Below, piece after piece: positions 2,686-53,542 of a DNA stretch of 57,338 bases. A model generated the notes under the pieces. That model saw only the letters and a program-made list of their open reading frames with translations. It had not been told where the DNA came from and made no database searches. The position numbers and the translations under genes were made by a program. This DNA comes from a virus: IMG/VR virus record IMGVR_UViG_3300017605_000570, positions 1-57,338 of that record. One strand, written 5' to 3'. Numbering within the stretch: the first letter of the stretch is position 1; every line of letters begins with the position of its first letter.

Positions 2686-3825
2686 TCACTGGAACTTTGA
2701 GGCCAGGCCCTTGGGGGCTGGTGCCGCCGGCGCCGCGGGCTTCGCCGTCTTGCTAGGGGCCTTGCGCGGCTTGGCTTTTTCCCGCTCGCGCGCGGCGATT
2801 GCGGCCAGTGCGGCCTGCGCCATCGGCCCGCCCATGGGGTTGATGACCGGCGGTGCGATCGCCTTCGGCGGATTCGGCGGATCGCCTTCGGCCATGAGCT
2901 CGAGCGATTTCTCGGCCTTCTTCTCCGTCACCGGCACGAGCTCGACGGTCGCTTCCTCGACCGGCGGCGCCAGGCTTGCGGCTGCCGCGCGCGAGGCGAT
3001 GAGCTCGGACTTGCCGGCGATCGACGGCAGCAGGATCTGGCCCATCTGGATGACGCCCACGCCCAGCAGGATCAGCGCATAGGTGAACTTGTCGCCGACG
3101 GCGAGGCCCACCATCGACAGCACGGTGCCGAGCATCTTGGCCTTGGGATCCGCGGGCGGCTTGCCGATCTCTTGCGTGCGCTTCTCGTGCAGCTGGGCGA
3201 GCTCGCGGTCGATCTTGATCTTGTGCCGCACGGCGCTGAGCTCCGATCGCTTCTGCGGCAGCGCGACGTTGGCCTGGGCCCGCGCGGCGACCGCGGCGGC
3301 TTCCCGGCTCTTGCTGGCAAGGGTCGCCTCGAGTCCCTTGATCTCGAGCTCGAGGGCATCGGGATCCGCGAATACCGCGACCTGCCAGGACTTCTCTTTC
3401 TCGAGCTCGGCGATGCGCCGCTCGACACTCGAGAGCGCGGACTCGTTTGCCATGTCCTTGGCCTGGGCGCCCATGAACACGCTGCCGAAGAACGTCAACT
3501 GCATCACGGCGGTGTAGGTGCAGGCGGCGATCAGCATCAGCATGCCGGCGAACGCGGCCTTGTTGTCATTGCGCAGCCGCCTCGAGCGGATCGCCGACAG
3601 TGCGCTGCGCTCGTATGAGACCAGGCCGATCGACAGCGCGATCAGCACGCCGGCGGCGATCATTTGCGTGGTGTAGTCGAGGCCCATGCTCTGCACCGCC
3701 ACCCATGCACCAAGCGATGAGGTGGCAGCGGCGAGGATGGCAAAGCCCCATCCGAGGCGAACGATCGGCCTCGACAGGCTGTCCGAGTTGCGGCGGAAAC
3801 GCTTGAGCCAGACGATCGGCGACAT
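2686..3825 (-). CDS. Multi-pass membrane protein with coiled coil
   Basis: 379 residues starting behind a GGAG site. Hydrophobic segments lie at about residues 22-45, 55-72 and 90-110, then a charged coiled-coil block at about 120-215, a further membrane segment at about 235-262, and a Pro/Ala/Lys-rich cytoplasmic-style tail. The plan (three or four N-terminal membrane spans, coiled coil, late span, soluble tail) is shared with the protein at 10017-11021 although the sequences differ. Function unknown; an envelope-associated host-takeover role is only a guess. Confidence 0.7.
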   Translation of the reverse strand: MSPIVWLKRFRRNSDSLSRPIVRLGWGFAILAAATSSLGAWVAVQSMGLDYTTQMIAAGVLIALSIGLVSYERSALSAIRSRRLRNDNKAAFAGMLMLIAACTYTAVMQLTFFGSVFMGAQAKDMANESALSSVERRIAELEKEKSWQVAVFADPDALELEIKGLEATLASKSREAAAVAARAQANVALPQKRSELSAVRHKIKIDRELAQLHEKRTQEIGKPPADPKAKMLGTVLSMVGLAVGDKFTYALILLGVGVIQMGQILLPSIAGKSELIASRAAAASLAPPVEEATVELVPVTEKKAEKSLELMAEGDPPNPPKAIAPPVINPMGGPMAQAALAAIAAREREKAKPRKAPSKTAKPAAPAAPAPKGLASKFQ

Positions 3826-3873
3826 GGTGGCAAGCTCCGGTTGCGGGCCTGCCGGCAGATATGCCGCGATTCT

Positions 3874-4422
3874 CTATGGCGCGTAGGACACCACGGGATC
3901 GCCTTGGTGGCGCCAATCCCAGAGATACCAGGCGTGATTTTCGCTCGGGCTCGCCTTCGGCTTGCCGGTCTCGGGCTCGACGAACCATACGATCCTGCGC
4001 GTCAGCACGATCTTGCGCGACCAGGCCGGGCAGTCGCGGAACAGGTCGACGCGGCCGTTGGCGCTGTCGAAGTCGACGCGCAGCAGCATGGCCACCCACC
4101 CCTTGAACGGCTTGGTGAGCTCGAGCGCCTTGCGGCAGAACTCCGGGGCGATGTTGTAGGGCGGGTTCGTGACGATGCCGCGGATCGACGAGCTCGGCAG
4201 CACGTCTTGCTTCAGGAAGTCGTAGCCGCCCTTGAGATCTGTCGCGAGCGTGCGGAACCGCTTCTCGAGCACCTTGACCATGGCGTTCTCGCCGCACGCC
4301 GGCTCCCACACGGATCCTGGCCGGGTCTCGACATGGGCGAGCAGGCACTCGGTCACCCACTCGGGACCGGTGCCGTAGAAGTCGAGCGTTTTGCGCTTGT
4401 AGCCGGATTTACGTTGCGACAT
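3874..4422 (-). CDS. DNA N6-adenine methyltransferase-like protein
   Basis: 182 residues with the class I methyltransferase signature EPACGENAM (about 40-48, AdoMet-binding motif I) and NPPY (about 86-89, catalytic motif IV), which together identify a DNA adenine methyltransferase fold. It probably methylates phage DNA to evade host restriction. No separate target-recognition domain is evident, so it is a short orphan enzyme. The start overlaps the upstream 49-residue ORF. Confidence 0.85.
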   Translation of the reverse strand: MSQRKSGYKRKTLDFYGTGPEWVTECLLAHVETRPGSVWEPACGENAMVKVLEKRFRTLATDLKGGYDFLKQDVLPSSSIRGIVTNPPYNIAPEFCRKALELTKPFKGWVAMLLRVDFDSANGRVDLFRDCPAWSRKIVLTRRIVWFVEPETGKPKASPSENHAWYLWDWRHQGDPVVSYAP

Positions 4423-4558
4423 GGCGCACCCTCACCTTGAGATCGAGACGAAATTTGCCGGTGCGCGGCACCACCAGCACCAGGCCCTCGCGCTCGAGCA
4501 GCGCGATGATCCGGCCCCACACGGCATCGGTGAGCTCGTCAGCGGCGTTTCTTGGCAT
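4409..4558 (-). CDS. Small overlapping phage protein, 49 aa
   Basis: ATG at 4558, stop TAA at 4409-4411. The reading LTDAVWGRIIALLEREG then LVLVVPRTGKFRLDLKV has normal protein composition, whereas the longer competing frame is Arg/Ser/Cys-rich and unlikely. It overlaps the end of the resolvase gene by 20 bases and the start of the methyltransferase gene by 14, as tightly coupled phage genes do. Function unknown; possibly a small winged-helix-like protein. Confidence 0.55.
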   Translation of the reverse strand: MPRNAADELTDAVWGRIIALLEREGLVLVVPRTGKFRLDLKVRVRHVAT

Positions 4559-5108
4559 GGGCTCGCATCACCAGGGGATCGAACCGCAGCGCCGCCTCGG
4601 GCGCGCGGAAGGACACGGTGAACAGCCAGATGCCGACGGCATCGGCGGCGTTGTGATTGGTGCAATTCCAGCCGCGCAGCGCCATGGCTTCAAACGGCGG
4701 ATATGGCTTCACGTCTTTGCCGAACCGGGACTTGCCGAGCGGGCCGCACAGCGCGGTTTTCCATTTCTGCGCCGTGACCTGCCGGCAGTCGACGCCGATG
4801 CGCTCGCACACTTCCTCGGTCTTCATGCACAGACCGTTGAGCTTCATCAGCGTGGCGGCATTGGTCTTCTGCCCGCCCCACCTGATCGATGGCGCCGCCT
4901 CGTGCACGACGATGGCCGGCTTGACCTGCTGGATGAGCTCGCGCAGCCAGGCGTCGTGCATGATCAGCGAATTGGGGAGAGCGCCGCCGCGGTTGCGGAA
5001 CGTGCCCCACACCGGGGCCTTGTCCGTCGGTGCGCCGTGGCAGAACCCGGTCTCGGTCGCAATGTCGAGCGCCAGGATCCGGCCGAGATTGTCCTCGCGT
5101 AGCCTCAC
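4539..5108 (-). CDS. RuvC-like Holliday junction resolvase/endonuclease
   Basis: 189 residues with an RNase H-fold pattern: ILALDIATETGF (about 11-22, first catalytic Asp), IVVHEAAPS (about 66-74, catalytic Glu) and a C-terminal HNAADAVGIW (about 151-160, catalytic Asp). This is the layout of phage RuvC-family crossover-junction endonucleases, which resolve branched DNA before packaging. It overlaps the ParB-like gene by 4 bases (ATGA-type coupling). Confidence 0.82.
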   Translation of the reverse strand: MRLREDNLGRILALDIATETGFCHGAPTDKAPVWGTFRNRGGALPNSLIMHDAWLRELIQQVKPAIVVHEAAPSIRWGGQKTNAATLMKLNGLCMKTEEVCERIGVDCRQVTAQKWKTALCGPLGKSRFGKDVKPYPPFEAMALRGWNCTNHNAADAVGIWLFTVSFRAPEAALRFDPLVMRAHAKKRR

Positions 5109-5875
5109 GCGACTTGCGCCTCATCGCGCCGCGCGCTGGCGACGGCTTCGGCGACGGTGAGCAGCTGCTGCACGGCGGTGTCGATCTCGACCCGATAGCC
5201 GATGAGATCGGCGGGATCGCGCACCTGCAGATCGCTCATGAGCTCGGCGAGGTCCCTGATGCATTTCGACGTGCTGCGCTGGTTGAAGCTCTTGATACCC
5301 TGGCGCTTCAGTTCCTCTTTCACTTGCTCGGCCGACTTCAGGCTCTTGAGCTTTGAGACGTCGCCGCGCTTGAGCGCTTCCTCGATCTGCCCCATGCCGA
5401 TCTCGCCGCGCGTGATCATGCGCTGGATATTCCGGGGCGCTTCGTCGCGGATCTTTTGCGCGCGGATCAGCGTGCCCTTCGACACGCCGGTCATCTCGAC
5501 CACCTGTTCGATCGAGAGACCGCGCATCTTGCGAAACGCCGCGGCGGCCATGGCGCGCTGTGCCACGCTCAAGTGCCGGCGGTTGATGTTGAGGCTCTCG
5601 ACGAGCTCGCCGGCCTCTTGCTCGGACCCGGCGAAGAACTTGAAGTGCGAGCGATCATAGGGGATGCCGGCGACGGCCAGCGCGGCATAGCGGTTGCGGC
5701 CGTCGAGGATGGTGTCGCCGTAGATGATGATCTTTTCGAGCAGCCCATCGCGTTTGATGCTGTCGGCGAGCTCGGCGAGCTCCTCGGCCGGCAGCATCGG
5801 GAACAGATCGGCGAACGGATGCGCGACCAACGACCCGATCCGGGGCTCGATGGCGGCGTAGGCTGCGTCGGACAT
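5105..5875 (-). CDS. ParB/Spo0J-domain DNA-binding protein
   Basis: 256 residues. Residues about 18-75 hold a ParB N-terminal domain (HPFADLFPMLPAEELAELAD, then DGRNRYAAL, corresponding to the GxxRxxA nucleotide-binding box), and about 105-150 a KorB/ParB-like helix-turn-helix region (LSIEQVVEMTGVSKGTL). Such phage ParB-like proteins may regulate transcription or act as nucleases; there is no ParA partner, so partitioning is not implied. Confidence 0.8.
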   Translation of the reverse strand: MSDAAYAAIEPRIGSLVAHPFADLFPMLPAEELAELADSIKRDGLLEKIIIYGDTILDGRNRYAALAVAGIPYDRSHFKFFAGSEQEAGELVESLNINRRHLSVAQRAMAAAAFRKMRGLSIEQVVEMTGVSKGTLIRAQKIRDEAPRNIQRMITRGEIGMGQIEEALKRGDVSKLKSLKSAEQVKEELKRQGIKSFNQRSTSKCIRDLAELMSDLQVRDPADLIGYRVEIDTAVQQLLTVAEAVASARRDEAQVA

Positions 5876-5975
5876 TGGTTTCCCTCGATGGTGAAAAGCC
5901 GGGGGCCAAATCAGGCTTGCGTGCGCTGCTCTGGTTGACGCCGCCCCGGCTCGACGTATCCCCGGGTTAGGGATC

Positions 5976-21231: not shown

Positions 21232-22338
21232 ATGACAGCTTGGACCCCGCCGAAAGGCGGCATGGACGCAAAGCAGCTGGCCACGCGCATGGGGACGCTG
21301 AAGCTCCCGACGATGCGCATGGATCAGATCACGCCTTACGAGAACAACCCGCGCAAGCGGACGGCCGAGGCGATCAAAAAGCTGGCCGATACGATCTCGA
21401 TGGTCGGCTTTAACGTGCCGATCGGCGTCGACGAGAAGGGTGTGATCCTCTACGGGCACGGCCGGCGCATGGCCGCCGAGCTCATCGGCCTCAAGATCGT
21501 GCCGACGCTGGTGATCCCGGGGCTCACCGAAGCGCAGAAGACCGCGTTCCGGATCTCGGACAACCGCGCCAGCGAAGAATCCGAGTGGGACAACACCAAA
21601 CTGCGCGAGGAGCTCGCCGAGCTCGCCAAGGGGCTCGAGGGCAGCGAGGCACTGCTGGCGGCGACGGCCTTCGACCTCGAGGACCTGTCGAAATGGGGCG
21701 ATGAGCTCGGCTTGACGCTGCCGGGCGAGGTCGAAACCCCGAATTTGGAGGCCAAAAAGCCCCAAAAACCGGAGAAAACGGGCTCTGAGGAGCCTAAAAA
21801 GACCCCAAAAAGGGCCTTCCTGACGAGCATTTTCGACACCGGCGGCGACGTCGAGGCGCTCTGCAAACAGCTGCTCGAGATGGGCTCGCCGCCCGATGGA
21901 GCGGTGTTTTCGCCGTTCGCGATGCTTGCGGAGGCCCAAAACGCTGCAGCGGCCTTGAAACGGCGGCTCTATGCCGGCCCGATCGACCCGGCGCAGGCCG
22001 ATCTGGTCTTCGACATGGCGCTGGCGTTCCCGACGGCGCCGTCGATCGACACGTTCCAGGCCTGGTCGGCCGACTACGAGGGCCGGATCACCCAGACGAT
22101 CGCGCGGCTGAAGCCCGGCGGCATGGTCGCGCTGCTGATCGGCGACGTCAGACGCGCCGACGGCGCCTATCTCGGGTTGCCGTGGCTCACGGTCGAGTTT
22201 TTCCTGCGCGCCGGCGCGACTCTCTCGGAGTCAGCGGTCTACGTGATGCCGACGGGCGACGTTTCTGAGGTCCCGCCGGCGGGCCAGCTACTGCTGGCGC
22301 ACGCGAATCTGCTGATATTCCGTAAACCGGGATCCTGA
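21232..22338 (+). CDS. ParB-like protein fused to methyltransferase-like domain
   Basis: 368 residues. Residues about 28-105 form a ParB N-terminal domain (ITPYENNPRKRT, then GHGRRMAAELIGL). A charged linker follows (about 165-195). The C-terminal half (about 255-365: IARLKPGGMVALLIGDVRRA, GLPWLTVEFFLRAG, HANLLIFRKP) has the layout of the C-terminal half of a DNA adenine/cytosine methyltransferase, but no DPPY/NPPY motif IV is visible, so this part may be inactive. Confidence 0.65.
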   Translation: MTAWTPPKGGMDAKQLATRMGTLKLPTMRMDQITPYENNPRKRTAEAIKKLADTISMVGFNVPIGVDEKGVILYGHGRRMAAELIGLKIVPTLVIPGLTEAQKTAFRISDNRASEESEWDNTKLREELAELAKGLEGSEALLAATAFDLEDLSKWGDELGLTLPGEVETPNLEAKKPQKPEKTGSEEPKKTPKRAFLTSIFDTGGDVEALCKQLLEMGSPPDGAVFSPFAMLAEAQNAAAALKRRLYAGPIDPAQADLVFDMALAFPTAPSIDTFQAWSADYEGRITQTIARLKPGGMVALLIGDVRRADGAYLGLPWLTVEFFLRAGATLSESAVYVMPTGDVSEVPPAGQLLLAHANLLIFRKPGS

Positions 22339-37301: not shown

Positions 37302-38600
37302 ATGGCCCTGTTCCCCCTTCGCCCGTTCTCCCTGTTTGCTCCGCTCGTGTGCCGCGATTGGACGACCACGCTGCGGCGCGCGTCATTCCGCGGCGTCGGC
37401 TTCTTCGTCGAGAACGACAGCAGATCGGGCGGCAGGCGCCTGGTCGTGCATGAGTTCCCCGGCGGCGACGATCCCGTGGTCGAGGACCTCGGCCGCAAGG
37501 CGCAGCACGTGAATGTAACGGCCTACGTTACGGGCGAAGCGCTGGGCGAGATCGAGGTCAAAGAGCAGGGCCTTATCGAAGCGCTCGAGCAGGATGGGCC
37601 GGGCCAGCTTTCGATCCCGATGGGCACTTTCAAGGTGCATTGCGAGAGCTACGAGCGCGCCTATTCCAAGGATCGCCTCGGCTACATCGCATTCAACCTC
37701 AAGTTCGTGCGCGCCGGCGAGAACAAGCCGGTGCTGCCGCTGATCGGCCTGGCGCGGGCGATCGAGTTCGCCTCGGGGGCGATCTCAGTGGCGACGGCGC
37801 TGGCCCGCACGTATCGCACGCTCGGCCAGGCCAGCTATGTGTCGGCCGCTTCAGCGCTGGGGCTGCGCGAGTTCCTGAGCGTATTCCAGGGCACCGCGAG
37901 GACCTCGCCGATCGCGCCGGCGAACATGGCCCCGCTGCTGGCGACGTCGAACGATGCGATCGACAATTCCAATACCATCACGGCAGTGGGCTCGCCGGGC
38001 GACAGCTACGGCACCACGGCCTACGTCGGCAATGCGCCGGTCGCCTCGGCCGAGCCGCTGGCGAACCTGATTACCGGGCTATTCCAAGAGGCCTGCAACG
38101 GCCTCGAGCCCGCTGACGCGGCGACGTTCTGCGCGAACTTTGTTGGCTACGGCGAGACGCCAACGCGCGTGACCACGCCAACCATGCAGCTGATCTCGAC
38201 CAATACCACGGCCATGAACAACGCCATCCGCGCGGCGGCGATCGCGTCCTACGCCGCGGCCGTCACGCAAATCGAGTTCAGCGATGTGCGCGATGCGCGC
38301 CAGGCCAGGGCCGATGCCGATGAGTATTTCGACGCGGCGCTCGAGGACATGGCCGGATGGGAGAACTTCGATCTGTGGAATGAGCTCAACGCACTGCGCG
38401 GCCAGGTCGCGCAGCATCTCACCACGCTGATCGCCACCCTTGCCCCCGTGCGCGTAGTGACCGCGCCGGCACGCATGCCGGCACTTTATTGGGCCTGCAG
38501 GCTGTACGGCGACTATAGCCGGGGCGACGAGCTTGTCGGCCGCAACGGAATCAAGCACGGGCTTTTCATGCCGACCGAGTTTGAGGCCCTCTCGCGATGA
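37302..38600 (+). CDS. DNA circularisation/baseplate protein (Mu gpN family)
   Basis: 432 residues. FRGVGFFVENDSRSGGRRLV (about 29-48), HEFPGGDDPVVEDLGRK, and QHVNVTAYVTGEALGEIEV form the DNA_circ_N domain (PF07157); the rest is helical. In Mu gpN (gp43) is a baseplate/tail component. Overlaps next gene by 4 bases. Confidence 0.9.
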   Translation: MALFPLRPFSLFAPLVCRDWTTTLRRASFRGVGFFVENDSRSGGRRLVVHEFPGGDDPVVEDLGRKAQHVNVTAYVTGEALGEIEVKEQGLIEALEQDGPGQLSIPMGTFKVHCESYERAYSKDRLGYIAFNLKFVRAGENKPVLPLIGLARAIEFASGAISVATALARTYRTLGQASYVSAASALGLREFLSVFQGTARTSPIAPANMAPLLATSNDAIDNSNTITAVGSPGDSYGTTAYVGNAPVASAEPLANLITGLFQEACNGLEPADAATFCANFVGYGETPTRVTTPTMQLISTNTTAMNNAIRAAAIASYAAAVTQIEFSDVRDARQARADADEYFDAALEDMAGWENFDLWNELNALRGQVAQHLTTLIATLAPVRVVTAPARMPALYWACRLYGDYSRGDELVGRNGIKHGLFMPTEFEALSR

Positions 38601-39715
38601 GCTCATTCCTCAACTTCGCCTCGAGCGCCGCGGCCAGGCGCAACTCGGAAGTCGTCACCGTGCTGGCCGACGGCAAGGAAACCCGCTCTTGGAAGCACGT
38701 GCATGTGCGCGCCGGCATCGCGGCTGCCGCGCGCAACTTCGGCCTGTCGACGGCAGAGCCGCGCATCGGGCCGGCCGACGCCAGCGACTTCCTGCAGGCC
38801 TACGCCTACCCGCCCGGCACCACGATCGAGATCTACGGCGGCAGCGATCTGCTCTGTAAGGGCTACGTCAACGTCTACGCGCCGACCTTCGACCCCGGGA
38901 ACCACGACGTCGAGATCGAAGGGCGCAGCAAGTCGCAGGATTGGATCGACGGCGCCGCCATCCACGACCGCGGCGAGTTCCTCAACAAGACGCCGCTCGA
39001 GATCGCCCTCGAGCTCGACAGCAACTACGGCGTCGGCATCACCAGCGAGGTCGAGCTCGAGGCGATCGAGCGCTTCAACATTTACCAGGGCGAGACCGTG
39101 CACGAGGCGCTCGAGCGCGCCACGCGCGATCAGGGCGTCACGCTGATGGGGCAGCCCGACGGATCCGTGCTGATGACCAACGGCAGCAAGGCCAGGCGTC
39201 ACGCCGGCGGCCTGGTCGAAGGCACCAACATCATGAAGGCCGCGGCCAGGCTCACCGACATGCACCGGCACGACCAGGTGATTGTCAAAGGCCAGCGCGG
39301 GCAGGGCACGGCCGACACCGACCTGCGCGTGAAGCAATCGTTCAAGGATCGCGGCATGCGCCGCTTTCGCCCCAAGGTGATCATCCACGAGGGCAACACC
39401 ACGCCGGACAAGGCGGCCAGGCGCGCGCAGTGGGAAGCCGAGCGGCGCATGGGATTCTCGGTCCGCTGCACTGTGATCGTGCCGGGCTGGCGCGACATCA
39501 ACGGCAAGCTCTGGCAGCCGAACCATCTCGTGTTTGTGGAGTCGCCCTACCTGAAGATCAGCGGCGACATGCTGATCCAGCACGTCGACCTGCACCAGCT
39601 ATCGACCGGCAACAGCAAGGGCACGATCGCCGAGATCCAGCTTTGCCATCCGCTGGCGTTCAAGGGCACCGCCGGCAAGGCCACCAAGACCGATCAGGAA
39701 TGGGGCTACCTATGA
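38597..39715 (+). CDS. Baseplate hub protein (Mu gpP/gp44 family)
   Basis: 372 residues. TVLADGKETRSWKHVHVRAG, PGTTIEIYGGSDLLCKGYVN, VEIEGRSKSQDWIDGAAIHD and LVEGTNIMKAAARLTDMHRH are typical gp44 features (a gp27-like hub). ATG overlaps the previous TGA. Confidence 0.9.
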   Translation: MSSFLNFASSAAARRNSEVVTVLADGKETRSWKHVHVRAGIAAAARNFGLSTAEPRIGPADASDFLQAYAYPPGTTIEIYGGSDLLCKGYVNVYAPTFDPGNHDVEIEGRSKSQDWIDGAAIHDRGEFLNKTPLEIALELDSNYGVGITSEVELEAIERFNIYQGETVHEALERATRDQGVTLMGQPDGSVLMTNGSKARRHAGGLVEGTNIMKAAARLTDMHRHDQVIVKGQRGQGTADTDLRVKQSFKDRGMRRFRPKVIIHEGNTTPDKAARRAQWEAERRMGFSVRCTVIVPGWRDINGKLWQPNHLVFVESPYLKISGDMLIQHVDLHQLSTGNSKGTIAEIQLCHPLAFKGTAGKATKTDQEWGYL

Positions 39716-40101
39716 ACTTTCGCGCCGACAAACACATCCCGCGCAATATGTGCCGGCGCGTCGAGGTGGTTGAGGTCGACGACAGCGGGCCGATCCAAAC
39801 GATCACCGTGCTCGGCCTGGCCGACGAGTATTTCACGCTGCCGCTCAGAGCTCAGCCGTTCGGGCTGTCGGGCGTGCCGCCGGTCGGATCCGTCGGCTAC
39901 CTGTTCGCCGCCAACGGCCGGCTCGACCAGGGCTTCCTGCTCAACATGGAGCACCCGAGTTATCGGCCTCGAGATCTCGCCAGCGGCGCCTGCCGCATGT
40001 ACGGCCAGGCCGGGCAGTCAATCACGCAAGACGAGCACGGCAATACGATCATCAAGCCCGCGCCTGGCGGGATCGTCGACATCAACCCGCCGACAAGCTG
40101 A
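39712..40101 (+). CDS. Baseplate spike protein (Mu gp45 family)
   Basis: 129 residues. NFRADKHIPRNMCRRVEVVE start with OB-fold and central beta elements (GPIQTITVLGLADEYFTLPL; GLSGVPPVGSVGYLFAANGR), ending in a repetitive beta strand part (MYGQAGQSITQDEHGNTIIK). Tip protein of the baseplate. The same domain recurs at the end of the next protein. Confidence 0.85.
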   Translation: MNFRADKHIPRNMCRRVEVVEVDDSGPIQTITVLGLADEYFTLPLRAQPFGLSGVPPVGSVGYLFAANGRLDQGFLLNMEHPSYRPRDLASGACRMYGQAGQSITQDEHGNTIIKPAPGGIVDINPPTS

Positions 40102-42203
40102 TGGCAGACGAGCTCAAACAGAAACTCGCCGCTGAATCGCCGTGGGCCTGGCTGCGCACCAAGGTCACATCGGCACAGCAATGGTGGGCCGCCCGCAACC
40201 CGCCGATCGCCGTGCAGCACACGCGCCAGGGCCGGCATATTCCGATCTACGGCCCCAGCATGATCGAGATGGGGCTCGGGGCGGCCGAGAGCACGCTCAA
40301 CTGGCTCGACTTCGCGCGCACGGGTTACGGCGGCTTCATAGGCGGGCGCGAGATGCTGGCGCCGGCGGGCCTCGGCACTGCACAGCTGGCGCGCTCACTG
40401 GCGGGCCGCGCCGCTGGCGAGCTCGGCGTATTCGGCGGCGACGTTGCCGCGCGCAACCTGGCTAAAGCCGGCCGACCAGGTGCGCAGGAGGCGCTCGAGC
40501 TCGCCAAGCAAATGGAGCGCGAGGGCTTCCCCGTCAAAGAGATCCAGAAGGTGACCACCGACATGCTGGCCATCAAGGATCCCAAGCTCGGCGGCGTGCA
40601 TAGGGGCGCGGAAGGCAAATGGAAGTTTGAGATCAGCGACGAGGGTGCCGATCTCATGCCCGGCACGCACAACACCGTTGGCGGTGCGCTCTCGCATCCC
40701 GAGTTGTTCGCGGCCTATCCCGAGTTCCGCGATGTGCGCTTGTTCGGGCAGCCTGGCGTCGGCGGCGTCATGCAGCGCGAACAAGCTGGCGTGTTTGGCC
40801 GCGAGCGGCCGGCAATGGGCATCGGCGTCGACGCCGAGAACAAGCTCAGCATCATACTTCATGAGGGGCAGCACTACAGCCAGCACGTCGAGGGCTTCGC
40901 GCAGGGTGGCAGCCCGCACTCGTTTCCGCTCGACGCGGAACGGATGAAAGGCCTGTTCGCCGGAACCGTTCTGCCGGATGCGGCCTATGAACGCGCAATC
41001 GTCAATGCTGCGACGCTCGATCTGCCCGGCTTCGCCGGCAAGACGATGGCGGACGTGCGCACGCACATCTTGGCCGGACAGCTAAGCGGCAGGATCCCGA
41101 CCAATCTCACCCCGATCGCCGAGAAGATGGCCGAGACCACAAGGTTTCAGCTCTATCTCGGTCTCGCCGGCGAGGTGGAAGCGCGCAACGTGCAGCACCG
41201 GCAGGGCTTCACCGCAGCGGCTCGACGCATGTGGGGCGCCGAAGAAACACAGCAAATCCCGCACGACCGGCAGATCGTGGTCGTCGGCGGCAAGCTGCAG
41301 AAACAGCTGCAGGAGACGATGCCCGGCCGACCGCGCCAGGTCACCCTCAACAAGCTGCGCGAGATGACGGCGCCGAACAAATCGATCACCACGTTCGCCT
41401 ACGACATGATCGACGCCAATGGCCAATCGATCGGCAAGATCACCGGATCCTACTACCCGGGCGCGAAAGAGCTCCGGGTCAACATGATCCAGCTGCGCGA
41501 TCGCGAGGGGAAGTTCGCGCATCTGCTGGGGCCAGACGACGTGCCGGGCTGGGTGCCCGAGCAAGTGTCGGCGCGCATGCTCAACCCCGGCCAGATCCGC
41601 GACGTGTTTCGCGGGCTCAAAGCGGCATACCCGTTCGAGAGCGCATCCGGCATCCGGCAGACCGGCATCCGCGGCGCGCGCACCGAAGGCGTTGGCGACA
41701 AGCGCACTGGCGCCGACGACATCACCCGCGTGCCGCTGGGAAGCAAGTTCCGCGGCGAAACCGGGCTGCCCGTCGGCGACCATGACGATCGTCACGATCG
41801 GCGCTTTGAGCTCGATGGCGAGCAATGGGAATGGATGGATTTCGAGGCCGACAAGCACATCGGCCGCAACGCGATCAGGCGTGTGGAGGTCCTCGCCGTC
41901 GACGATAGCGGGCCGATCCAGCTGGTGACCGTGCGCGGGCTCGATGGCGAGGAATACACCGCGCCATCCGGCCAGGTGTTCGGGCTCTCGAGCTCGCCGC
42001 CGGTCGGCTCCGTCGGCTACGCCTTCGCCGGCAATGGGCGTCCTGACCAGGCCTTCATGATGAACCTCGAGCACCCAGACTTTCGCCCGGTCGGCCAGGA
42101 CTCAGGGGCCGTGAAGCTGTACGGCCAGGCCGGGCAATTCATCGGCATGGGCGCCGACGGCAACCTGGTGATCTCAGCGCCTGGCGAGGTGAGGCCGCAA
42201 TGA
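40101..42203 (+). CDS. Putative metallopeptidase-spike fusion (polyvalent cargo protein), 700 aa
   Basis: Residues about 1-540 are unlike a structural protein: helical start, then a region with LIILHEGQHYSQHVEGFA (about 252-269), an HExxH-like zinc-peptidase motif of the kind seen in large polyvalent phage proteins. From about 578, MDFEADKHIGRNAIRRVEVL onwards is a second copy of the gp45 spike domain, homologous to the preceding gene. The cargo could be delivered through the spike. ATG follows the previous stop. Confidence 0.75.
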   Translation: MADELKQKLAAESPWAWLRTKVTSAQQWWAARNPPIAVQHTRQGRHIPIYGPSMIEMGLGAAESTLNWLDFARTGYGGFIGGREMLAPAGLGTAQLARSLAGRAAGELGVFGGDVAARNLAKAGRPGAQEALELAKQMEREGFPVKEIQKVTTDMLAIKDPKLGGVHRGAEGKWKFEISDEGADLMPGTHNTVGGALSHPELFAAYPEFRDVRLFGQPGVGGVMQREQAGVFGRERPAMGIGVDAENKLSIILHEGQHYSQHVEGFAQGGSPHSFPLDAERMKGLFAGTVLPDAAYERAIVNAATLDLPGFAGKTMADVRTHILAGQLSGRIPTNLTPIAEKMAETTRFQLYLGLAGEVEARNVQHRQGFTAAARRMWGAEETQQIPHDRQIVVVGGKLQKQLQETMPGRPRQVTLNKLREMTAPNKSITTFAYDMIDANGQSIGKITGSYYPGAKELRVNMIQLRDREGKFAHLLGPDDVPGWVPEQVSARMLNPGQIRDVFRGLKAAYPFESASGIRQTGIRGARTEGVGDKRTGADDITRVPLGSKFRGETGLPVGDHDDRHDRRFELDGEQWEWMDFEADKHIGRNAIRRVEVLAVDDSGPIQLVTVRGLDGEEYTAPSGQVFGLSSSPPVGSVGYAFAGNGRPDQAFMMNLEHPDFRPVGQDSGAVKLYGQAGQFIGMGADGNLVISAPGEVRPQ

Positions 42204-42463
42204 AAGCGTGGGCTCGGCTCGGCGATACCGGCACGCATGGCGGCAACATCACCACGGCGGCAAGGGCTGTCCGCGCCGAGGGGCAGTTCGTCGCCCGCGC
42301 CGGCGACATTTACACGTGCCCGATTCATGGTCCCAACCCGATCCTGCCGGGCGTCGACTCGGTTACCTATCGGATCGAGGGCGCAATGCTCGCCAGGCAC
42401 GGGGATCTCACCCAATGCGGGGCCAGCATCATCGCCAGCGCGGTGAAAACCTTCGACGTGTGA
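42200..42463 (+). CDS. PAAR-domain spike tip protein
   Basis: 87 residues. ARLGDTGTHGGNITTAA, AEGQFVARAGDIYTCPIHGP and MLARHGDLTQCGASIIASAV form a PAAR domain (PF05488): His and Cys residues bind metal and cap the spike. ATG overlaps the previous stop. Confidence 0.85.
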   Translation: MKAWARLGDTGTHGGNITTAARAVRAEGQFVARAGDIYTCPIHGPNPILPGVDSVTYRIEGAMLARHGDLTQCGASIIASAVKTFDV

Positions 42464-42469
42464 GGCCCC

Positions 42470-43060
42470 ATGCGGATCCGATTCAGAGACGCCGAAGCGT
42501 GCGAGCCGGCGGCGACCACGTTTATTTGGGATACTGTGTGGATTAACGGCATCAATGCCGAGAGCGTAATCGGCGGCTACGGCGATTGGATCCTCGCCGG
42601 CCCCGGCGATCCCACCGGACAACTCGGCGGTTTCCGCGCCCGCATGCAGCTTGCAACTGCTGTGGTGCTGCAGCTTTTCAGCGATCGCAGGCTGCCCGAG
42701 GAGCTCGCCGCACCAGGCGACGCGCGCGACGATCCGCGAGGATGGTGGGGCAACTCATTGCGCCTCGACGGCGAGCCCGATGCCGAGATGGGATCGCTGC
42801 TCTGGACGCTCGAGCGCGAGCCGCTCACTCAGGCCACTGCCGACCTGGCGCGCGCGTATTGCGAGCAGGCCCTCGAGGTGATCACTAACCAAGGGGCTGT
42901 GGGACGATTCGAGGTCGAGACCTCAGTCGACATCGCCCGCGGTTTCCTGGGTATCGAGGTGCGCGCTTTCGACCATGTCGGTAACCCAGCGCTCGCCGAG
43001 GTCTTCGAGGTGCTCTGGCAGCAGATCGCGGCCCCGGCACAAATGACTTACGCGAGGTGA
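42470..43060 (+). CDS. Baseplate wedge-type protein (Mu gp46 family)
   Basis: 196 residues. IRFRDAEACEPAATTFIWDT, DPRGWWGNSLRLDGEPDAEM, and a LARAYCEQALEVITNQG helix are typical of GP46 (PF07409). Part of the baseplate between spike and wedge. Confidence 0.85.
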   Translation: MRIRFRDAEACEPAATTFIWDTVWINGINAESVIGGYGDWILAGPGDPTGQLGGFRARMQLATAVVLQLFSDRRLPEELAAPGDARDDPRGWWGNSLRLDGEPDAEMGSLLWTLEREPLTQATADLARAYCEQALEVITNQGAVGRFEVETSVDIARGFLGIEVRAFDHVGNPALAEVFEVLWQQIAAPAQMTYAR

Positions 43061-45971: not shown

Positions 45972-48046
<2,075 letters not shown>

Positions 48047-48047
<1 letters not shown>

Positions 48048-49243: not shown

Positions 49244-51201
<1,958 letters not shown>

Positions 51202-51210
51202 GGGGGCTCA

Positions 51211-52281
51211 ATGCGATTTCACGTTGTCAGCCTGCCGCACACGCAAGTGACGCGGCAATTCGAGGCCTGCGCCTACACCGCCAAAGTCCGCAAGTTCTGC
51301 ATGATGCTGAAGATGCTCGGGCATCACGTGACGCTATACGCCGGCGAGCAGAACGAAGCTCCCGTCGACGAGCTCGTGCCCTGCATCTCTGAAGCGCAGC
51401 GCCAGGCGGCCGTAGGCCGGTGGCACCACTTCACTGCGGCGTCGTTCGATTGGACGCTGCCGCACTGGCAGACCTTCAACGCCAACGCGATCGCCGGCAT
51501 CAAGGCCCGAGCTCAGCCGCGCGATTTCGTGTGCATCATCGCCGGCCTGGCGCATAAGCAGATCGCCGACGCGCTGCCCTCGCTCATGACGGTCGAGTTC
51601 GGCATTGGCTACGGCGGCAATTTCTCCCGTTACCGGGTCTTCGAATCCTATGCCTGGATGCACGCCTGCTATGGCGCGCAGGCCCGCAATCAGGATCCTC
51701 ACTCGATCGACCCGCCGTGGTTCGATACGGTTATCCCCAACGCGGTCGACCCCACCGAGCTCCCTTTCGAGCCCATCAAGCTCGACTACTTCCTTTTCAT
51801 GGGCCGGCTGATCGAGCGGAAGGGTTACACGATCGCCGTCGACGTTTGCCGCGAGATCGGCGCCAGGCTGATCATTGCCGGCCAGGGCACCCCGCCGCCT
51901 GGCGTCGAGTATGCCGGCGTCGTCGGCCCGGCCGAGCGGGCAACGCTGATGGGCGGCGCGATCGCGCTGTTCGCGCCCACGACCTACCTCGAGCCGTTCG
52001 GCGGTGTCGTGGTCGAGGCCATGATGTGCGGCACGCCCGTCATCACCACGGATTGGGGCGCGTTCGTCGAGACCAACGAGCACGGCGTCACGGGCTTTCG
52101 CTGCCGCAACAAGCGCGAGTTCATTGCCGCCGCCCGCATGATCGCCAAGGGCACGCTCAACGCCAACGACATCCGCGGCCGGGCCGTTGCCAAGTACAGC
52201 CTTGGAGCCGTTGCGGTGCAGTACCAGGACTATTTTGAGCGCCTCATGACGCTCTGGGGCGATGGATGGAACGCCGCCTGA
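51211..52281 (+). CDS. GT4-type glycosyltransferase
   Basis: 356 residues. C-terminal half has the GT4 pattern LDYFLFMGRLIERKGYTIAV, RLIIAGQGTPPPGVEYAGVV, then LEPFGGVVVEAMMCGTPVIT with the Glu pair. N-terminal half is a second Rossmann domain. Uses a nucleotide sugar. Position after fibre genes suggests that it modifies fibres or phage structures. Confidence 0.88.
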   Translation: MRFHVVSLPHTQVTRQFEACAYTAKVRKFCMMLKMLGHHVTLYAGEQNEAPVDELVPCISEAQRQAAVGRWHHFTAASFDWTLPHWQTFNANAIAGIKARAQPRDFVCIIAGLAHKQIADALPSLMTVEFGIGYGGNFSRYRVFESYAWMHACYGAQARNQDPHSIDPPWFDTVIPNAVDPTELPFEPIKLDYFLFMGRLIERKGYTIAVDVCREIGARLIIAGQGTPPPGVEYAGVVGPAERATLMGGAIALFAPTTYLEPFGGVVVEAMMCGTPVITTDWGAFVETNEHGVTGFRCRNKREFIAAARMIAKGTLNANDIRGRAVAKYSLGAVAVQYQDYFERLMTLWGDGWNAA

Positions 52282-52351
52282 GCTTTCCCCGGCATCGGCG
52301 AACCCCCGCGAATCTGACAAGGCTGTGGGCGCAATCCTTTCGGGGGCGCCC

Positions 52352-53542
52352 ATGCAAGTCGAGATCGTTGACGACAAGGTGCACATCAACGGCCTGCCCG
52401 TGCCGTTCGTGCCGTCCCCCAACACCTCGGGCGCCAGGATCGAGCCGCAGCTGCTGATCCTGCACGACACCGCGGGATCCACCGGATCCGGCGCCGTCGA
52501 ATGGTTCAAGAACCCCTCGAGCAAAGTCTCGGCCCACCTGGTCGTCGATCTCGACGGCAGCGTCACGCAATGCGTCGAGCTCGATCGCGTGGCTTGGCAC
52601 ACCGGCAAGAGCTCCTGGGGCGGTCGCGCCGGCTGCAATTCGTATGCGATCGGCATCGAGATCGTGAACCCCGGCGGGCTCAAAGGCGGCTGCGATCGCG
52701 CCGTCGCCGAGTTCGGCAAGATCTACACCGGCGCAGTCGAGGCCTCGGATTCATGCCACTGGTCGAAGCTCTGGATGCCCTACACCGAGGCGCAGCTGGC
52801 CGTGGTCGAGCTCCTCGTCGCGGCGATCGGCCGGGCCTATCCGAAGATCGCCGAGGTGCGCGGCCACTACGAGATCTCGCCAGGCCGCAAGGAAGACCCC
52901 ACGCCGCTGATGCCTTGGGACCGCATGCGCGCGGCGCTCGGGACTCGCACCATGGTCGAGTTCCATCCGGCGCATGCCGTGAAGGAAATGCAGGCCGCGC
53001 TGGCCGAGCTCGGCTATCCCGTCGGCAAGGTGGACGGCCTGATGGGCCAACGTACACGTGCCGCGATCTTCGCCTTCCAGCAGCAGAACAAGCTCGCGGC
53101 GACCGGGAGCTACGATGCGGCCACCGAGGCCAAGCTCTTTCATCCTGAGAACCCGCCGAAAGAGATGCCGATCGGCACGCGCGCCGAGACCACGGCCGCC
53201 GATCTGCGCGCCGGCGGATCCGTGACGACCTACAGCACGGCCGCGCTCAAAGGCGCCGCCGGCGTCGCCGCAGGCATCCAGGTCGGCTCGAGCCTGATGG
53301 ACATGACGTCGGCCGTGAACGACGTGAGCTCGACGGTCACCACGGTTGAGACCGCTCTCAAGACTGCCGATCGCGTCGACGCTCTGGTGCCGAAGCTGGG
53401 CGCGCTCGTCACCTGGTCGCAGACCACGCGCGGCCTGGTCGCGATCGCCATGCTCGTGCTGCTCACGGGCATGTGGATCCTCGGCAAAGTCATCGAGAGC
53501 CGCCGCGTCAACGATGCGAAGACGGGAGCCAACGCAAAATGA
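52352..53542 (+). CDS. Endolysin: N-acetylmuramoyl-L-alanine amidase with PG-binding and membrane anchor
   Basis: 396 residues. Amidase_2 domain: LLILHDTAG (about 35-43, His38), VAWHTGKSSWGG (His83), IGIEIVNPGG, then GHYEISPGRKEDP (zinc His and Asp). PG-binding repeat KEMQAALAELGYPVGKVDGL follows (about 212-270), and one membrane span near the C-terminus (LVAIAMLVLLTGMWILGKVI). The membrane tail is unusual for an endolysin. ATG 52352 chosen because MQVEIVDDKVHINGLPVPF matches the family start; an ATG at 52262 would add 30 unlike residues. Confidence 0.85.
   Translation: MQVEIVDDKVHINGLPVPFVPSPNTSGARIEPQLLILHDTAGSTGSGAVEWFKNPSSKVSAHLVVDLDGSVTQCVELDRVAWHTGKSSWGGRAGCNSYAIGIEIVNPGGLKGGCDRAVAEFGKIYTGAVEASDSCHWSKLWMPYTEAQLAVVELLVAAIGRAYPKIAEVRGHYEISPGRKEDPTPLMPWDRMRAALGTRTMVEFHPAHAVKEMQAALAELGYPVGKVDGLMGQRTRAAIFAFQQQNKLAATGSYDAATEAKLFHPENPPKEMPIGTRAETTAADLRAGGSVTTYSTAALKGAAGVAAGIQVGSSLMDMTSAVNDVSSTVTTVETALKTADRVDALVPKLGALVTWSQTTRGLVAIAMLVLLTGMWILGKVIESRRVNDAKTGANAK

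Follow-up and report, generated by a model that had tools for sequence, protein, structure and literature searches.

A zincin-like metallopeptidase domain of polyvalent-protein type joined to a second gp45 spike copy in a contractile phage: a putative virion-borne effector

Two gp45-type spike domains are encoded side by side in the baseplate region of the phage analyzed here, the second of them at the end of a 700-aa protein whose front part contains an HExxH motif, and the locus thus raises the question of what such an enzyme-like load would be doing on a tail spike. The source is a whole IMG/VR virus record (IMGVR_UViG_3300017605_000570), taken from position 1 to 57,338 and referred to below, in its full length of 57,338 bases, as the window. 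Its late region encodes gpA terminase, portal, S49 protease, decoration protein and capsid protein E, as well as a contractile sheath, tube, tape measure and a Mu-type baseplate, the genes of which follow each other (by start position) in the order circularisation protein (37302), hub (38597), spike (39712), fusion (40101), PAAR (42200), gp46 (42470), baseplate J (43064) and gp48 (44143). The hub protein (38597–39715, plus strand, as are all features of this cluster described below) is of the Mu gp44/gpP type, with Pfam GpP and Gp44-like domains and a match to PHROG 177 (baseplate hub, E 5.5e-80). The original prediction of a normal spike at 39712 agrees with a 129-aa protein (39712–40101) consisting of a gp45 OB-fold and a short tail, lacking an apex domain and matching PF06890 (Phage_Mu_Gp45) at 44.5 bits, above the cutoff of 24.1. 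The fusion gene (40101–42203) is directly followed, as also predicted, by a gene for an 87-aa PAAR tip protein (42200–42463; PF05488, 64.4 bits vs. a cutoff of 27) and then by the baseplate wedge gene gp46 (42470–43060; PF07409, E 9.1e-22). The first spike gene overlaps the fusion gene at TGATG, and a second overlap, ATGA, connects the fusion and PAAR genes (four bases shared with the fusion stop); translational coupling is suggested by this arrangement. No immunity gene adjoins the fusion, its neighbours being the first spike and PAAR genes with no room between. A megablast search of phages with 20 kb of the window gave no match, and the hub, used as a single-protein scan query, returned no relatives, the exact peptide patterns being too strict.

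Several other features of the window were recorded along the way. Two putative tail-fibre genes (45972–48047 and 49253–50389) contain long collagen-like GPTGPTG repeats, the former with two near-identical modules of ~110 aa and repeats in between; a group 1 glycosyltransferase gene (51211–52281) directly precedes an amidase endolysin gene (52262–53542); a LuxR/GerE-type regulator is encoded on the opposite strand near the contig end (55623–56699, minus); and a weak ParB N-terminal match (E 0.0023) is located just upstream of the terminase gene (21232–22338).

The frame at 40101–42203 is, exactly as had been proposed, a single 700-aa protein on the plus strand, with coding-type GC by codon position all along its length. 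From the N- to the C-terminus it comprises a region (residues 1–114, 40101–40442) predicted to form two helices followed by a low-confidence stretch; a predicted zincin-like metallopeptidase domain including LPD23 (residues 115–400, 40443–41300), delimited by an AlphaFold model and an alignment of 72 sequences; a segment (residues 401–578, 41301–41834) modeled as a small beta-rich part (430–476) and then a low-confidence linker; and the second spike domain (residues 579–700, 41835–42200), which begins at an in-frame ATG. Among the loci gathered, the N-terminal region has a sole match, in the fusion protein of a second phage contig designated L093 (E 5.8e-6, mainly residues 78–135), and no relative of residues ~401–578 was detected. 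The front part had been described as about 577 unrelated residues; the length needed only a correction to ~578, but residues ~115–400 are not unrelated, since they form an LPD23-type domain (see below).

The claim of a full second spike domain was upheld: residues 579–700 match PF06890 at 33.2 bits, again above the cutoff of 24.1, and are 60% identical to the first spike over 122 aligned codons. With dN of 0.36 and dS of 0.82 between them, both spike copies look constrained. Compared with Mu gp45 (9ki1), the gp45 profile of this clade covers only residues 22–127 of 197 (E 7.6e-11), and the C-terminal apex domain with its metal site is absent from both copies, whose last residues correspond to about position 127 of the 197 in Mu. 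As both copies stop before the apex domain, it is presumably the separate PAAR protein that makes the tip of the spike.

The identity of the load was approached by profile and translated searches, and from the Pfam, PHROGs and tblastn results taken together residues ~115–400 are assigned to an LPD23-type polyvalent-protein domain. The LPD23 match itself (PF18838; residues 129–185, 40485–40655; E 2e-4) scores 21.5 bits in the window fusion and 24.8 bits in the L093 fusion, both under the gathering cutoff of 27; across the alignment, PF18838 is matched by 71 of 72 sequences at E up to 0.01, with a best value of 2.1e-21. The PHROGs matching the cargo region are uncharacterised families whose profiles span 1664 to 3431 residues, and tblastn retrieved proteins of Pseudomonas phage AF, F116-like phages and plasmids (annotated as “LPD23 domain-containing protein”). 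A scan of viral contigs with an alignment of the domain yielded at least 471 relatives, and sequences were retrieved for the best 80; the final alignment of 72 sequences covers window positions 40413–41330 and the corresponding relatives. In this alignment H254, E255, H258, Q261, G269 and Y352, as well as G357, E358, E360, R362 and R367, are directly seen to be invariant (72/72), and Q257 is kept in 71. The HExxH-like motif of the original prediction is thereby substantiated as HEGQH (residues 254–258, 40860–40874), on a predicted helix (245–264), with predicted zinc-binding histidines and a general-base glutamate; a later motif, GEVEAR (residues 357–362, 41169–41186), lies on another predicted active-site helix (356–366), and E358 or E360 is a candidate third zinc ligand. 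Most of the aligned relatives were supplied by a scan whose patterns lay around the LPD23 strand and GExEAR rather than HExxH, so that the invariance of the latter counts, at the level of sequence, as an independent observation. A chance match to HExxH was considered and is ruled out by the retention of both histidines and the glutamate in all 72 relatives.

The individual relatives point in a similar direction, with 20 of the 72 matching DUF6782 (“putative metallopeptidase”) and others matching Peptidase_M78, SprT-like, M90 and eCIS_core; the eCIS_core/DUF4157 profile (PF13699) matches three of the 72 weakly and the window protein not at all. In nearly all relatives (71/72) LPD23 stands beside the HExQH…GExEAR region, and because the two parts travel together, LPD23 may make up the front half of one zincin-like peptidase domain.

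Structure prediction, the check originally suggested for the front part, gave a confident model for residues 105–410 (mean pLDDT 83, pTM 0.82), in which the domain has a zincin-like topology. Helices and strands are followed by the HEGQH helix, a variable insert and the later GEVEAR helix, the order of elements that the available text of PMC5512222 gives for the zincin MPTases found in polyvalent proteins; the zincin arrangement of HExxH on one helix and a glutamate on a following one is likewise present in the predicted helices 245–264 and 356–366. Foldseek of the full-length model against viral models retrieved LPD-named phage proteins (E 2.9e-14). Against the PDB, the predicted domain gave no significant match to a solved zincin; the weak, non-significant hits included M61, PepF, lethal factor and PprI, and a profile search against the PDB listed IrrE at E 0.18. 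The spike part of the full-length model is of low confidence, as the alignment held no other spike sequences except that of L093, and its PDB search was uninformative.

The same architecture is directly observed in a second phage. Contig L093 (IMGVR_UViG_3300038552_000032) shows the gene order of the window, from the hub through a 131-aa spike and a 748-aa fusion to PAAR and gp46, and its fusion (3699–5945) carries HEAQH, GEMEAR and a gp45 domain while being only about 33% identical to that of the window. An assembly artefact as the source of the fusion was considered and is ruled out by this recurrence in a separate contig. Among 13 records searched with both profiles, two gp45 copies and a zincin coincide in both of the records that have either (2/2), so that the link of the second spike copy with the enzyme is itself an observation; the remaining 11 have one gp45 and no zincin, and seven of these, in a close clade, show the same short spike followed by PAAR and no enzyme. 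A wider comparison, over ~60 loci with gp45, revealed no further protein combining the gp45 and zincin domains; the known fusions are two, one of them on an 11.7-kb fragment. In a tree of the enzyme domain the two fusions fall together (SH-aLRT 90%), on long branches. In gp45 trees, the two spike copies of each phage tend to be mutually closest; the two second spikes were not recovered as a clade, and the AU test does not reject such a clade (p-AU 0.067), but it does reject a clade uniting the two first spikes (p-AU 0.005). This within-phage grouping fits gene conversion, co-adaptation of co-assembling subunits or independent duplications. In another close relative (L092, 5656–6384), the only spike begins with a mostly polar extension of 116 aa that precedes the gp45 domain, and this suggests that the spike N-terminus tolerates additions.

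Relatives of the enzyme that lack a spike are directly seen in the neighbourhood of virion genes. The relative in Pseudomonas phage AF is a 2213-aa protein encoded directly after the genes for internal virion proteins A and B and a structural lysozyme; three solo relatives (L019, L037 and L026) are near portal and major head genes, one (L023) comes after a portal gene, and another (L016) is near an ejection-type/structural transglycosylase gene. Open frames of at least 1000 aa hold 42 of 96 relatives. As judged from gene content, these neighbourhoods match the pattern of proteins that are packed in virions and ejected, which the available text of PMC5512222 argues for polyvalent proteins in general; there, such proteins are predicted to be injected, and their MPTases to process themselves or to hit host proteins. 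A scan of bacterial genome contigs, made with poor patterns, returned only a distant LPD23 fragment. One solo relative is placed differently: a 600-aa LPD23/zincin protein (L014, 5542–7341) is encoded between endolysin and spanin-like genes, and some members of the family may accordingly belong to lysis cassettes or be cargo inserted there.

Taking these lines together, we lean, with modest confidence, toward a virion-borne zinc peptidase carried on a duplicated gp45 spike subunit, delivered upon contraction and directed at the host; judging from the sequences, the phage probably delivers the enzyme into the bacterium together with the spike. In the proposed scheme, the fusion subunit would become part of the spike trimer, probably alongside unfused gp45 made from the first gene, which would spare at least one of the three subunits the ~63-kDa load. 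Three such domains at the base seem bulky, which makes a mixed trimer attractive, and it would also account for the retention of the unfused spike gene. In Mu, the N-terminus of the spike touches the hub and the C-terminus of the tape measure (PMC11915804), and an N-terminal cargo would therefore be located on the hub side, at the base of the spike, and not at the PAAR tip; a point against this placement is that such a cargo would be crowded beside the tape measure. Contraction of the sheath would then drive fusion, spike and PAAR through the envelope, the enzyme would arrive early, and the zincin, perhaps first releasing itself by cleavage, would act on a periplasmic or cytoplasmic host protein. 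Of the original idea of an effector loaded on the tail tip, a metallopeptidase-type domain on a second, recurrent spike thus survives, but the load would sit at the base rather than at the tip. A broader generalization is decidedly more tentative: some contractile phages might keep two spike genes for the sake of mixed trimers, with a peptidase delivered at puncture, before the DNA, and, as part of the same tentative reading, such loaded trimers might be a phage counterpart of spike-borne T6SS effectors.

Four other explanations have to be weighed against host-directed delivery. The zincin could mainly be a processing enzyme, cutting itself in cis from the spike or cutting other virion proteins during assembly or entry, with the released spike or N-terminal fragment as the product that matters. 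The available text of PMC5512222 proposes that polyvalent proteins are autoprocessed by their MPTases and cites P1 DdrB as a processed case; DUF4157, a zincin marking eCIS cargo, has been guessed to act in loading or release (PMC8213781); and a low-confidence linker does lie between enzyme and spike. Nevertheless, the phage already owns an unfused gp45 gene and would need no processing to obtain one, no cut site is visible, and the 401–578 linker is not conserved between the two fusions, and we regard this explanation as rather improbable. Opening of the envelope, by attack on the cell wall or an outer-envelope protein at the puncture site, is unlikely for other reasons. The precedent is the spike of another contractile phage: T4 gp5 carries a lysozyme between its OB-fold and beta-helix, in the only spike protein of that phage. 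The position of one relative between endolysin and spanin genes (L014) and of another near a transglycosylase gene (L016) would also suit such a role. However, LPD23-type domains are found on plasmids and inside very large internal-virion proteins as well, HExxH zincins are not known as typical peptidases of peptidoglycan, an amidase endolysin is encoded elsewhere in the phage (at 52262), and seven close relatives manage with spike and PAAR without the enzyme.

The two remaining alternatives question the fusion or the activity of the enzyme itself. An in-frame ATG (nt 41835, MDFEADKH) lies exactly at the start of the second spike domain, matching the start of the first spike, and translation in the window phage could restart there to give a free second spike, with the long form being minor or degraded. 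That two separate proteins are made in this way is quite improbable, given that no clear ribosome-binding site precedes this ATG, that there is no stop between the enzyme and spike parts in either phage, and that the same fusion in L093 has no ATG at its junction (AEWEFAAD), the nearest alternative start being a GTG ~14 codons upstream, also without a clear ribosome-binding site. The ATG-less junction favours one polypeptide and makes separate translation of the second spike in L093 appear unlikely; split genes in both phages are disfavoured on the same ground. Least probable of all, and hardly to be expected, is that the domain is catalytically inactive and serves purely as a structural adapter, positioning or stabilising the spike. 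In its favour, the L093 copy has strongly diverged in the surroundings of the motif (a long branch); against it, both fusions, like every one of the 72 aligned sequences, retain H, E and H together with the two glutamates of GExEAR.

A putative host-directed peptidase riding on a spike has several partial parallels. One is T4 gp5, likewise an enzyme domain within the spike polypeptide of a contractile phage, although the T4 lysozyme is inserted in the spike, whereas the zincin of the window is N-terminal and on a second spike copy. The Mu gp45 spike (9ki1, PMC11915804) shares the OB-fold, the start of the beta-helix and the gene order; it has its own metal-binding apex domain, while the window spikes end before the apex and a separate PAAR follows. 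For the enzyme, the closest systems are the LPD23/polyvalent proteins with a zincin MPTase (Iyer et al., 2017; PMC5512222), with which the domain appears to be shared by sequence and predicted structure and whose LPD23 members also resemble the family of the window fusion in their virion-gene neighbourhoods. Polyvalent proteins are marked by several disparate domains on a polypeptide delivered with the virion; the fusion has two disparate domains, and its delivery is predicted. The LPD23 relatives seen are solo or parts of very large proteins, whereas the carrier here is a spike; in the available text of PMC5512222, MuF and portal domains are named among the carriers, “spike” is not mentioned, and the tail and baseplate passages describe no such fusion.

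With Pseudomonas aeruginosa VgrG2b (PMC6899460) the fusion shares a zinc-metallopeptidase (HExxH) covalently attached to the puncturing spike of a contractile machine. In VgrG2b the enzyme is C-terminal on a hub-plus-spike chain and has a cognate immunity gene, whereas the window has separate hub and spike proteins and an N-terminal enzyme; a profile search against the PDB found no sequence relation between the two domains. The VgrG-like plan of the original prediction therefore applies in part: a peptidase is joined to a spike, but the order is the reverse of that in evolved VgrGs, whose single chain unites a gp27-like hub, a gp5-like spike and a C-terminal effector, an arrangement that the window lacks, and no immunity gene adjoins. 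The DUF4157/eCIS_core cargo of eCIS (PMC8213781, PMC11297309) is similar in being an HExxH zincin in the cargo of a phage-tail-derived injector, and differs in that no joining to a spike is described in these two papers, while the window fusion is spike-joined. A peptidase on a spike (VgrG2b, PMC6899460) and zincin-marked eCIS cargo (PMC8213781) are thus already known, as is, or is predicted in the available text of PMC5512222, the travel of phage-injected polyvalent proteins inside the virion; none of the literature cited here was found to describe a polyvalent-family zincin combined with a duplicated phage spike. For LPD23, which is catalogued only as uncharacterised, the present data also suggest a role as the front part of the proteins of a zincin-like peptidase family. 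If the proposed role is true, the locus offers a simple test system, with two spike genes, one of them loaded, and unloaded relatives for comparison, and a polyvalent-type enzyme on a spike would link the early effectors of phages with the spike-borne weapons of bacteria.
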